A DNA stretch of 64,000 bases. Origin: Gemmatimonadota bacterium. GTDB lineage: Bacteria > Gemmatimonadota > Gemmatimonadetes > Gemmatimonadales > Gemmatimonadaceae. Shown one piece after another: positions 24,017 through 37,413 of this stretch; the stretch's first letter is position 1, and every line of letters begins with the position of its first letter. The stretch is taken from contig JACQBG010000012.1 of the NCBI GenBank assembly GCA_016194585.1, forward strand, positions 1 to 64,000, written 5' to 3'. The notes beneath the pieces were generated by a model that saw nothing but the letters and a program-made list of their open reading frames with translations, was not told the origin of the DNA and ran no database searches. The translations under genes were made by a program, and so were the position numbers.

Positions 24017-24063
24017 GCAGTGTACCGTGCACCGTTCACGGAGAACGTTACACGGTACACTGC
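24017..24063. repeat. Inverted repeat with 13-bp perfect arms downstream of asnS
   Basis: GCAGTGTACCGTG (24017-24029) and its exact complement (24051-24063) enclose a 21-base interior that itself contains the stem CGTTC/GAACG (24033-24037, 24043-24047). It lies just after asnS and before the efflux promoter. A transcript could form a two-part hairpin, but no T-run follows on the minus strand, so a classical terminator is uncertain. The mixed direct and inverted ACCGT/ACGGT units look like a short interspersed intergenic repeat. Confidence 0.8.
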
Positions 24064-33230: not shown

Positions 33231-34505
33231 TCAGGGCGAGCCGGAAGCGCCGCGCAGGTTCCCGGCCGACTGCTCCAACTCGGCGGCGGCGAGTCGCTGC
33301 ACGCGGGCGAACGCCGGCTGGTCGGCGCGGGCGAGTGGCATCCCCTGGCTCGCCTTCAACGCCAGCCTCGGGTCGCGCTGCACGCCCCCGACGAGCACCT
33401 CGAAGTGCAGGTGCGGCGCCGTCGCGAGTCCGGTCATCCCCACGTAGCCGATCGTCTTCCCCATCTGCACATGCAGCCCGGGGCGCACGCCGCTCGCGAA
33501 CCCGCGCAGGTGGCCGTAGCGCGTCACGTAGCCGTTGGGATGGCGCACCTCGATCGTGTTGCCGAACCCGTTCTTCGTGCCCGCGAAGATGACGGTGCCG
33601 TCGCCGATGGCGCGCACCGGCGTGCCGGCGTTCGCCGCATAGTCCGTCCCCTTGTGGGCGCGCCATTCGCCGAGGATGGGGTGCTTGCGGAGGCCGAACA
33701 CGCTCGAGATGCGGCGGAAGCTGAGCGGCGCGCGGAGGAACGCCGCCCGCAGCGAATGCCCGCTCTCGTCGTAGTATTCGGCGCGCGTCGACCCCTTCGG
33801 CACGTAGCGGTACGCCTGCAATTCGCGCCCGTTGCGCTCGACGCCGGCGGCGATCACGTCGCCGACCCGGACACCGCCCTTCGGCGAACGGCCGCGCTCG
33901 AACACGACCCGCACGCGGTCGCCGTCCTGCAGCTCACGGCTCATGTCGATGCGGTACTCGTAGACGTCGGCGATGGCCCACGCGAGTTCGGCGCGGGCGC
34001 TCTTGGCCGGGAGCAGCGCGCCGGCGCCCTCGTCGACGGCCTCGTACAGGTTGTGGTGCACCACCCCGCGGGCGACGACCGTGTCGACCGTCCAGGTGAT
34101 GCGCTCGTCCTCGGCGACCCACTTCGTGCCCTGGCGCGTGAAGTGGAGGAGGCGATCGGGGGAGAGGTGGAGGGTGACCGCGGCCGCCGGCGAGGCGATG
34201 CCGAGGCGGCGATTCCCGTCGACGTCCACGACGAGCCCGGCGGGCACGTGGCGGTCGTCGAGTGCCGTGGCCGCGGCAAGGACCGCCGTGGCGTCGTCGC
34301 GTGACAGGTGGTGGCGCTGGAGGAGCTTGGCGAGCGGTTCGCCGGCGTCGAGCGTGTCGCTCTCGTGCCAGCGCACGGTCACCGGCGCTCGCGATGCATC
34401 GTCGCCGGCTGCCGAGCTGTCGTCGGGGCGCAGACGAATCGCGGCGGCGGCCCCGAGGACCGCCGCCGCACCGATGCCGAGCGCGATCGTTCGCGTCGGC
34501 GCCAT
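33231..34505 (-). CDS. M23-family (LytM-like) murein endopeptidase
   Basis: A 424-residue protein with an N-terminal anchor or signal (TIALGIGAAAVLGAAAAI). A LysM/OapA-like region of about 100-250 residues precedes the LytM domain. Zinc ligands are visible: H-x-x-x-D in RAHKGTDYAANAG and the H-x-H of PHLHFEV, with GNTIEVRHPNGYVTRYGHL between. It would cut peptide cross-links or serve as an amidase activator. ATG overlaps the ftsZ stop by one base, so septal hydrolysis coupled to FtsZ production is a reasonable inference. Confidence 0.9.
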   Translation of the reverse strand: MAPTRTIALGIGAAAVLGAAAAIRLRPDDSSAAGDDASRAPVTVRWHESDTLDAGEPLAKLLQRHHLSRDDATAVLAAATALDDRHVPAGLVVDVDGNRRLGIASPAAAVTLHLSPDRLLHFTRQGTKWVAEDERITWTVDTVVARGVVHHNLYEAVDEGAGALLPAKSARAELAWAIADVYEYRIDMSRELQDGDRVRVVFERGRSPKGGVRVGDVIAAGVERNGRELQAYRYVPKGSTRAEYYDESGHSLRAAFLRAPLSFRRISSVFGLRKHPILGEWRAHKGTDYAANAGTPVRAIGDGTVIFAGTKNGFGNTIEVRHPNGYVTRYGHLRGFASGVRPGLHVQMGKTIGYVGMTGLATAPHLHFEVLVGGVQRDPRLALKASQGMPLARADQPAFARVQRLAAAELEQSAGNLRGASGSP

Positions 34506-35713
34506 CAATCCATCTGGCGCCGGATGAACGTCGGGATCTCGAGATCGTCGAGGTCGGCCTGCGGACGGCGCTCCGGCGCCGCGGCGGGACGACGCGCCGG
34601 CGCCGCACCACCGGCCGGACTGGCCGCCGCGCCGGAACTGTTCTGCCACGCGCTGCCGATCACGGGCTTGGGACGCCCGCCGTCGATCGGGATCACCGGC
34701 GTGCCGCTCGCGCCGGTCACCCGCCCGGTCGGCGCGGCGGCGTGGTTCACGCCCTTGCCGAAACCGGTCGCCACGACCGTCACGCGGATCTCGCCGGTCA
34801 TCGCCGGCTCGCGCACCGTGCCGAAGATGATCTCGGCGTCGTCGCCCGCGGCGTCGTGGATGATGTCGGCCACGCCGGTCACTTCGCCGAGCGTGAGGTC
34901 GTCGCCGCCCGTGACGTTGATGAGCACGCCGCGCGCGCCCATGATCGAGACGTTGTCGAGCAGCGGGCTCGAGATCGCCTGCTGGGCCGCTTCCATCGTG
35001 CGGTTGTCGCCGCGTCCGATGCCGGTGCCCATGAGCGCCGCGCCGCCGTCCTTCATGATGGTGCGCACGTCGGCGAAGTCGACGTTGATCATGCCGACGC
35101 CGCTGATGATGTTCGAGATGCCGCTCGTCGCGTGCAGCAGCACTTCATCGGCCTTCTTGAGCGCGTCCTGGAACGGGATCCCCTTGCCGACGACGGCGAG
35201 CAGCCGCTCGTTCGGCACGACGATCATCGTGTCGACGTATTTCGCCATCTCGGCGATCCCTTCCTCGGCCTGGCGCATGCGCTTGCGGCCTTCGAACAGG
35301 AAGGGCTTGGTGACGATGCCCACGGTGAGCGCGCCGGCTTCGCGGGCCAGCTCGCAGACGATCGGCGCCGCGCCGGTGCCCGTGCCGCCCCCCATGCCGC
35401 AGGTGACGAACACGAGGTCGGTGTTGGCGAGCACCTTGCCGACCTCGTCGCGGTTCTCCTCGATGGCCTGGCGCCCGATCTCGGGGCGGGCGCCGGCACC
35501 GAGTCCGCGCGTCAGCTTCTTGCCGATCTGGATCTTGACGTCGGACTTCGAGCTCAGGAGCGCCTGCGCGTCGGTGTTGACGGAGATGAACTCCACGCCA
35601 CTGAGGGATTCCTCGATCATTCGATTGACCGCGTTGCCGCCACCGCCGCCGACCCCGACGACTTTCATCCGGGCGTGCTGGGCGGGGGTCTCCTCGAACT
35701 CGAAGATGCTCAT
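34505..35713 (-). CDS. ftsZ: Cell division GTPase FtsZ
   Basis: A 402-residue tubulin homologue that forms the Z ring. It shows KVVGVGGGGGNAVNRMI, the tubulin signature GGGTGTGAAP, and the T7 loop region NVDFADVRTIM. A Pro/Ala-rich linker follows, and the C-terminal FtsA-binding peptide is LDDLEIPTFIRRQ. ATG at 35713 (MSIFEFEETPAQ) is chosen; TTG ten codons upstream is a weaker option, and neither has a strong ribosome binding site. It is separated from ftsA by 434 bp, so it probably has its own promoter. Confidence 0.97.
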   Translation of the reverse strand: MSIFEFEETPAQHARMKVVGVGGGGGNAVNRMIEESLSGVEFISVNTDAQALLSSKSDVKIQIGKKLTRGLGAGARPEIGRQAIEENRDEVGKVLANTDLVFVTCGMGGGTGTGAAPIVCELAREAGALTVGIVTKPFLFEGRKRMRQAEEGIAEMAKYVDTMIVVPNERLLAVVGKGIPFQDALKKADEVLLHATSGISNIISGVGMINVDFADVRTIMKDGGAALMGTGIGRGDNRTMEAAQQAISSPLLDNVSIMGARGVLINVTGGDDLTLGEVTGVADIIHDAAGDDAEIIFGTVREPAMTGEIRVTVVATGFGKGVNHAAAPTGRVTGASGTPVIPIDGGRPKPVIGSAWQNSSGAAASPAGGAAPARRPAAAPERRPQADLDDLEIPTFIRRQMD

Positions 35714-36147
35714 GGCGCGTGGCGCTCCGTGTTTCTCGCTCAATGGTCACCTTGCGGCCGTGCTGACGGCCGGGATGCTGGACGGAAATATACGCGCGTG
35801 ATGCGTTCGCACCACGTCAGAAAGACGACCGAAGTTCGAAAAAAGCACACCTTGCGGTTAGCTGGTTTTCCACACAGCCCGCGAAGGTATTGCCTTTGTG
35901 AAGTGCGAGTGGGAGGGGTGAGCGTGCCCTGGTATCGGTCCGGCGACGTTTTGGGGGGATCAGGGCGGACGGATCTGATAACGGCGGATCAAGCAACCGC
36001 AACTGAATTGGGGGAACGGCGCCCACTCTCACGGCGTAGTTCCCCCATTCGTGTAGTTGCAGTATCAGCAGTGATCAGAGTCTTCAGATCTGATCCCCTC
36101 AAGAATTTCGGCGCTCGTACGCCAGATCCGCCGACGCCGACCCTGAC
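35714..36147. other. Intergenic region between ftsA and ftsZ (no gene seen)
   Basis: This 434-bp stretch is less GC-rich than its surroundings. I see no credible gene; a 71-codon minus frame at 35817-36032 has no coding character. The half next to ftsZ has a minus-strand TATATT (35792-35787) that could be a -10 box for ftsZ, without a clear -35. TTTTCCACA at 35866-35874 is one mismatch from a DnaA box but stands alone. The other half holds a large nested palindrome described separately. Confidence 0.7.
35951..36102. repeat. Nested imperfect palindrome of about 150 bp
   Basis: Outer arms TTGGGGGGATCAG (35951-35963) and CTGATCCCCTCAA (36090-36102) match at 12 of 13 positions. Between them lie further paired segments centred on the same point (about 36027-36031): GATCA/TGATC (35987-35991, 36072-36076), GCAACT/AGTTGC (35999-36004, 36055-36060), perfect GGGGGAAC/GTTCCCCC (36010-36017, 36039-36046) and CGCC/GGCG at the apex. 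The series of collinear matches with small offsets looks like one long decayed inverted repeat. The inner hairpin could also terminate or attenuate ftsA transcripts; no T-run follows. Confidence 0.75.
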
Positions 36148-37413
36148 CTAGAAGAAATCCTGCAGCCAGGTCTTGAACCGTCCCGCCAGCCCGTCGAAGG
36201 TCGGCGTGGCGCCGCTCATCGAGATGCGCTTCCCCTTGCCGCTCCCGGCCCCGATGGCGAGGCGATGGGCGCCGTACTGCACCAGCCCCACCACGGTCGA
36301 GAAGCGCGGCGCCTGCACGCTGTCGGCGAGGCCGCCGAGGAACTCGCCGGGCTCGCCCACGCGGGCGCCGGTGCCGAACACGTCGCTCGCCAACTCGCCG
36401 GTGCCCGGCTGTGCGGCCGCACCGCCCGTCACCACGACACCCGCCGCGAGGCGCTTGATGTAGCCGGCATGCTCCACATCGCGCATCACCAGTTCGAAGA
36501 TCTCGGAGGTGCGCTGGTGGATGATGTGGGCGAGCAATTCTCTCGGGATCTGCCGGTCGCCTTGGGCGACGGTGCTCGGCAGCTTGATCACTTCGCTGTG
36601 GTCGACCATCGGCTCGTACGCGCAGCCGTAGGTCTCCTTGAGCCGCTCGGCGTCGGCCTGCGTCACGCCGAGTCCGTGCACGACGTCGCTCGTGACGTTG
36701 TTGCCGCCGTAGGGCACGGTGCCGAGGTAGCGGATCTTCCCTTCGTGGAAGACGGCGACGTCGGTCGTCCCCGCGCCCATCTCGACGAGGCAGACGCCGA
36801 GTTCCTTCTCGTCCTCGGTGAGCACACTGAGCGCGCTCGCGAGCGGCTCGAGCACCAGCTCGCCCACCCGGTACCCGCTCTTCTCGACCGCCTTGCGCAG
36901 GTTCATGGCCGGCGACGAACCGATCGTGACGAGGTACATCTCCGTCTCGAGCCGCGTGCCGATCATGCCGATGGGGTCGCGGATGCCGATGTTCTTGTCG
37001 ACCGTGTATTCCTGCGGGATCGCGTGGATGAGCTCGCGGTCCTGCGGGATGGCCTGGGCGCGGGCGACGGCGTTGGCGCGGTCGACGTCGGCCTTGCTGA
37101 TCTCGGCGCCGTTCACCGACGCGATGCCGCGCGACGTCATGGCCTGCATGTGCTCGCCGGCGATGCCGGCGTAGAGCGTCTGCACCTGCGCGCCCGCCAT
37201 CCGTTCGGCGTCCTGCATCGCCTTGGTGATGGAGCGCGTGGTTTCGTCGATGTCGGCGACGACGCCGCGCCGGAGCCCCGTGGTGCGGGCCTGGCCGACG
37301 CCGAGGATATTCACCGTCGGATGCTTGGGCAGATCGCCCACGACCTCCGCGATCACCGCGGTGGTCTTGGCCGATCCGATGTCGAGGCCGGCAACGAGGC
37401 GGTCTACGTTCAT
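36148..37413 (-). CDS. ftsA: Cell division protein FtsA
   Basis: A 421-residue actin-like ATPase that tethers FtsZ to the membrane and recruits late division proteins. Motifs include phosphate 1 GLDIGSAKTTAVIAEV, the 1C subdomain (RNAVARAQAIPQDRELIHAI-like region), phosphate 2 MGAGTTDVAVF and the adenosine motif VVVTGGAA. The C-terminal amphipathic membrane-binding helix is FKTWLQDFF. ATG overlaps the ftsQ stop by four bases. The gene is followed by a 434-bp gap before ftsZ rather than the more usual tight spacing. Confidence 0.96.
   Translation of the reverse strand: MNVDRLVAGLDIGSAKTTAVIAEVVGDLPKHPTVNILGVGQARTTGLRRGVVADIDETTRSITKAMQDAERMAGAQVQTLYAGIAGEHMQAMTSRGIASVNGAEISKADVDRANAVARAQAIPQDRELIHAIPQEYTVDKNIGIRDPIGMIGTRLETEMYLVTIGSSPAMNLRKAVEKSGYRVGELVLEPLASALSVLTEDEKELGVCLVEMGAGTTDVAVFHEGKIRYLGTVPYGGNNVTSDVVHGLGVTQADAERLKETYGCAYEPMVDHSEVIKLPSTVAQGDRQIPRELLAHIIHQRTSEIFELVMRDVEHAGYIKRLAAGVVVTGGAAAQPGTGELASDVFGTGARVGEPGEFLGGLADSVQAPRFSTVVGLVQYGAHRLAIGAGSGKGKRISMSGATPTFDGLAGRFKTWLQDFF

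Follow-up and report, generated by a model that had tools for sequence, protein, structure and literature searches.

MITEs are short non-coding palindromic repeats that occur in several copies and are marked by constant terminal inverted repeats, target-site duplication and a cognate transposase. Among other described palindromes, REP sequences occupy mainly the gaps between convergent or co-directional genes and sites downstream of coding regions (PMC3733652); a REPIN is a doublet of REPs that forms a hairpin and is tied to a RAYT (PMC3116915). Inverted uptake signals act as terminators and are enriched where genes meet tail to tail (PMC1852404). Perfect inverted repeats, surveyed in 118,019 genomes, are described as enriched at transcript ends in a study whose main text does not name Gemmatimonadota (PMC13155455); two further papers mention the phylum or Gemmatimonas, not such hairpins, in their accessible text (PMC11237797, PMC12985086). 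Literature searches, mostly outside subscription journals, returned no description of such hairpins in Gemmatimonadota and nothing on termination in this phylum.

Here we describe a long nested palindrome in the gap that separates two division genes, ftsA and ftsZ, in a Gemmatimonadota genome. We suggest, with about even confidence, that it is one copy of a dispersed set of hairpins, long and nested, which stand directly downstream of genes and would serve as weak (bidirectional) terminators or as protectors of transcript ends. Like REP, BIME and REPIN elements, these are dispersed extragenic palindromes, mainly in convergent or co-directional gaps and downstream of coding regions. However, they are about 76–200 bp long, compared with units of 20–40 bp that bear a GTAG or CGTC tag at one end, their arms consist of tandem words and their copy number is lower. 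Their extragenic location, mostly downstream of coding regions, is that of REPs and REPINs. Membership in the classical REP/REPIN class is nevertheless rejected, because none of the 18 genomes of the genus contains PF01797, the RAYT-type Y1 transposase domain of the IS200/IS605 kind (a control search found it in 5 of 14 known genomes). With uptake-signal terminators the hairpins share inverted pairs of short words and tail-to-tail enrichment, but the words vary by copy and species and no single word is known here at high copy number. With bidirectional intrinsic terminators they share a GC hairpin, A-rich 5′ and T-rich 3′ flanks and convergent genes, whereas their nested arms are much longer and the U-tract is weak or absent in this genome. 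Finally, they are short, non-coding, multi-copy and palindromic as MITEs are, but the arms are not constant and no transposase was identified (PF01797 searched).

The locus and its palindrome

The window, i.e. the whole stretch of 64,000 nucleotides analysed (G000:C21:1-64000), belongs to a genome of 3.34 Mb in 50 contigs, denoted G000. According to the gene calls, made with a codon-usage caller, the minus strand carries in order a Mur-ligase gene, ftsQ, ftsA (36148–37413), a gap of 434 bp and ftsZ (34505–35713), and Pfam confirms the identities of FtsA, FtsZ and FtsQ. The nearest named relatives of FtsA come from Gemmatimonadota MAGs, the closest being 95% identical (CAIRBD010000646.1, Kiruna2_bin-1709). 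The gap length given in the first-pass annotation is correct, with the ftsA stop codon at 36148–36150 and the ftsZ ATG at 35713, the start kept in relatives. Its description as unusual holds only in part: the gap spans 118 to 1290 bp in 61 relatives, with a median of 282 bp, and 204–338 bp within the genus, except for one of 877 bp.

The palindrome (35951–36102) starts 45 bp past the ftsA stop codon. The inverted-repeat search returns its outer arms, 35951–35997 and 36056–36102, as a pair (I1) of 47 nt each, 72% complementary and spaced by 58 nt, which matches exactly the span of the nested palindrome of about 150 bp noticed earlier. A further pair (I3, 36009–36023 and 36033–36047, 87% complementary) is nested inside, and the perfect stem, also noticed earlier, is found as GGGGGAAC/GTTCCCCC. 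In the ungapped palindrome scan the element scores 21. Both strands were folded, as the annotation had proposed. One strand as RNA reaches −80.1 kcal/mol against −50.5 (sd 4.05) for shuffles (z −7.3; 0 of 200 as good), and the opposite strand −70.2 kcal/mol (z −5.8); the fold with DNA parameters gives z −6.3. The anatomy is that of a GC-rich core hairpin flanked by A-rich DNA on its near side and T-rich DNA on its far side, all within longer self-pairing arms. The core, GGGGAAC...GTTCCCC, lies at 36011–36045.

The gap between ftsA and ftsZ in relatives

Comparison of the gap in relatives, another proposed check, shows that palindromes recur behind ftsA mostly with other sequence. From 80 loci, 78 were tried (two with partial matches were dropped) and 61 gave the gap. 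Palindromes scoring at least 17 are present in 13 of the 61, all starting at most 88 nt from the ftsA stop, compared with 0–1 in shuffled gaps. Their sequence is mostly unlike the G000 element, and 8 of these 13 have word-repeat arms scoring at least 10.

Within the genus 16 of 17 loci gave sequence, 14 of them with an automatic ftsZ start. The stretch just past the ftsA stop is variable: G000 has the nested element, G072 a short ACGGTGAACCGT hairpin, G019 and G059 palindromes of ATCCGTGG words, and G062 a nested palindrome whose core resembles the G000 core on the other strand. In the FtsA tree G072, G000, G068 and G073 form an unordered group at 87/99. No palindrome of note lies behind ftsA in G068, G073, G065, G045 and G067.

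Past this variable stretch TCACA, GTGGA.AA, a T-run and TCGTC are present in nearly all genus gaps, and a TATATT box is present in 11 of 16. On the minus strand of the window the conserved region starts at TTCACAAAGG (35893–35902), with the palindrome upstream of it. Then come the T-run (35837–35846), terminator-like behind an imperfect hairpin (z −3.3) and separate from the palindrome, and CGTATATTTCC (35784–35794), a conserved promoter-like box ahead of ftsZ. In 9 of the 16 genus gaps a stable hairpin (z −2.8 or lower) stands before the T-run; for this count the script chose another T-run in G019, where the hairpin is nonetheless seen in the gap comparison.

The first-pass annotation proposed that the palindrome could uncouple expression of ftsA and ftsZ. 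As the cause of such uncoupling the palindrome is not supported, because the five congeners without a palindrome keep the T-run and the TATATT promoter-like region; in G045, G067 and G065 the T-run lies behind a stable hairpin. A predicted hairpin past ftsA recurs with different sequence, and the putative ftsZ promoter region is kept with or without a palindrome. An ftsA–ftsZ-specific regulatory element is likewise rejected, since the core and the end recur elsewhere in the genome and congeners lack the palindrome.

Several further features of these gaps were observed. The hairpin and T-run past ftsA together occupy 35837–35900 on the minus strand, and the hairpins of congeners differ from it in sequence. 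Of the 61 gaps from relatives, 52 have the TATATT promoter-like box (35784–35794, minus strand) and 27 have TGTGGA[AT]AA (35864–35874, minus strand), where shuffled gaps give 1.65 and 0.05, respectively. The second motif we take to read on the other strand as the DnaA-box-like TTWTCCACA, and judged by this motif a link between DnaA and ftsZ is possible. Gaps of 865–982 bp at three loci (L048, L049 and L055, in G058, G035 and G001) appear to hold an antisense gene, putatively for an Ogt/MGMT-like DNA repair protein, as judged by eye from a PCHRV motif. A gap of 1113 bp (L044, in G009) holds an apparent glycosyltransferase-like frame in the ftsA direction, also judged by eye.

Related hairpins elsewhere in the genome

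The proposed genome search for related copies finds two parts of the element, its end and its core, and also a second long form at other places. Its last 24 bases (36084–36107, plus strand) recur at six more places of the genome with 93–100% identity. Beside one of these copies the first 51 bases (35940–35990, plus strand) match at 79% identity (G000:C16:41029-41080), which defines a second long element, G000:C16:41029-41183. The remaining right-end copies form the end of a near-perfect hairpin of about 76 bp (model R1), with the consensus GCCGGCGAATTCTTGAGGGGATCAGNNCTGATC-loop-GATCAGNNCTGATCCCCTCAAGAATTCGCCGGC. A covariance model of this hairpin finds 18 loci in G000 (11 strong and 7 weaker, each on both strands) among the 150 of 1190 candidates that were scored, and no match below E 0.26 among 17 congeners. 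An exact-pattern scan of GTDB contigs, a set that possibly leaves the genome itself outside, gives no match. Shared ends are seen across the family. The window copy is absent from the covariance-model matches and has only its end in common with them. Thus, the window element is modular: its core is common, while the end of its arms is shared with the ~76-bp family of its own genome. Within this family the pairs with double changes number 3 of 22, a weak sign of compensatory evolution. Two copies lie at contig ends (G000:C31:38164-38190 and G000:C50:8-34), where the assembly probably broke.

The core occurs 23 times in G000 and 1–25 times in each of the 17 congeners, while the reversed pattern gives 0 and 0–1, respectively. 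In G000, 20 cores are intergenic (12 convergent, 8 tandem and 0 divergent), 2 lie in genes and 1 at a contig edge. Most of the intergenic ones are inside much longer palindromes, whose folding energies, with 90-bp flanks included, lie between about −98 and −161 kcal/mol, and the arms around them differ, carrying for instance CCACGGATCGCACGGATC, AACGACGCCTCAGATC or CACGGAGG words. In the 10 nt flanking the 20 intergenic cores A makes up 46% upstream and T 39% downstream, against an intergenic background of 17% each. This is the polarity of a bidirectional terminator.

A known RNA family is rejected, as nine loci gave no Rfam match at the gathering threshold; in window positions 35000–37000 the only match was a sub-threshold miRNA one outside the palindrome. 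Plasmid or phage origin is also rejected, with no match at E 0.01 in 72,556 plasmid and 50,697 phage records.

The strongest alternative to a dispersed 3′-end hairpin is a selfish miniature element, MITE- or REPIN-like, which would be moved by a transposase in trans, have no host function and survive where its insertion is harmless, i.e. behind genes. We regard it as a lesser but real possibility. The restriction of the ~76-bp amplification to one species, the copies at the two contig ends and the end common to the long and short forms all speak for it, as does a word pattern, CCACGGATNNCACGGAT, abundant in scattered lineages. Among 200 genomes of the phylum, 16 contain this pattern: G000 has 19 copies, G158 has 26, G201 has 46 and the others have few or none; the three rich genomes come from two families (f1, f1 and f9), G201 being the one of another family. 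On the other hand, PF01797, the sole transposase family searched, is missing from all 18 genomes of the genus, the flanks have T-polarity, and a MITE pattern would not show one core within arms that are unrelated to each other, or arms made of tandem words. In the earlier description, the dispersed repeat element is supported. The decayed MITE is a candidate reading, no transposase being tied to the element (PF01797 searched).

Members of the ~76-bp family keep GATCAG..CTGATC almost unchanged but differ in their central bases, which do not always pair. This resembles sequence recognition, and repeated GATCAGNNCTGATC halves could be the sites of a cruciform or a protein-binding DNA element (for gyrase, a nucleoid protein or a dimeric regulator). 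Such a role is improbable, however, as the window copy retains the motifs only partly and other palindromes of the genome are without them.

Placement behind genes and a proposed role at transcript ends

We surveyed palindromes scoring at least 18 in samples of 456 kb from G000 and 400 kb from G019. Part of the G000 sample (contigs C3, C46, C16 and C9) was picked for holding copies, which biases density and not orientation. The G000 sample holds 37 palindromes against 1 in a first-order Markov copy (a single run per genome): 14 overlap genes, 1 is at an edge and 22 are intergenic. The intergenic ones are 12 convergent, 10 tandem and 0 divergent, where random placement gives 10%, 55% and 35%, and all 10 tandem ones are closer to the upstream 3′ end (binomial p 2e-7 for convergent, 1e-4 for divergent and 6e-4 for the 3′ side). 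In G019 there are 8 convergent, 13 tandem (12 of them closer to the 3′ end) and 2 divergent palindromes. Here the convergent share, 8 of 23, is not above the random expectation of 40%, convergent space being large in this genome. G068, G013 and G022 have 8, 9 and 6 intergenic palindromes; 2 of the 8 in G068 are divergent, and just 2 of the 4 tandem ones in G013 are closer to the 3′ end. Two genomes thus show a strong 3′ bias, and the other three supply few data. At orthologous 3′ ends of G000 and G019 palindromes occur in both genomes at 3, in either alone at 3 and 2, and in neither at 17, a suggestive, not significant sharing (p 0.07). A short palindrome of score 17 with GTGCACCGTTCACGG-type words was also noted in the window at 24017–24063, about 8 bp past a gene.

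The arms are often built of short words. Tandem near-repeats reach a repeat score of 10 in 16 of 65 arms, against about 0.2 expected from shuffled arms (4/23 in G000, 6/22 in G019, 2/8 in G068, 4/7 in G013 and 0/5 in G022). In G000 alone the signal is weak, with a mean score of 6.9 compared with 5.0 for shuffled arms and 6.0 for other intergenic DNA. That the words are inverted pairs of a DNA-uptake-type sequence doubling as terminator, as in Neisseria and Pasteurellaceae, is very improbable: short inverted-pair words are enriched between convergent genes as described for paired uptake signals (PMC1852404), but they vary by copy and species, and none was seen at the copy number usual for uptake signals, at least 1,000 per genome; CCACGGATNNCACGGAT, the word that was counted, has 19 copies in G000.

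Strict hairpins with a T-tract were called at 12 of 69 palindromes in five genomes, and at 0 of 69 in the A-tract polarity control; other 3′ intergenic regions give 31 of 421 and 4 of 421, respectively. The four genomes other than G000 supply these 12, G000 itself giving 0 of 23, and the terminator scan makes no call at the window copy, whose flanks, CATTCG and CAATTC, are weakly T-rich. Of the features of an intrinsic terminator, the GC-rich hairpin is present and the U-tract directly after it is absent from the 23 G000 palindromes; around the cores the excess of T is weak. Taking the flank polarity and the T-tract counts together with the weak tail of the window copy, we favour a weak terminating or protecting role. 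The avoidance of 5′ regions is equally expected of neutral insertion. We prefer the dispersed 3′-end hairpin to a functionless mobile element, giving it about half of our credence.

We suggest that the dispersed hairpin would work as follows. Transcribed from either side, its RNA would fold into a hairpin, which may slow or end RNA polymerase and may shield the preceding transcript at its 3′ end, which in this case is the ftsA end of the division-gene operon. The copies would spread within the species by some process and be retained at sites that tolerate a transcript end or benefit from one. Expression of ftsZ probably starts from a conserved promoter-like region of its own, with or without the palindrome. 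If this account is right, a species-specific palindrome in the division-gene cluster need not regulate those genes. The region behind ftsA would then offer a natural series, unrelated hairpins at a single conserved position, which allows a test of whether selection keeps the transcript end rather than the sequence.

More tentatively, and as a possibility that we consider doubtful, Gemmatimonadaceae may repeatedly build long hairpins at gene 3′ ends, with inverted pairs of tandem words enclosing a core like that of a terminator, and with fast turnover of the words while position and pairing are kept. If true, close species would spell the hairpin behind the same gene differently, and the family would have a distinct, word-based way to make and renew transcript-end hairpins without a known transposase.
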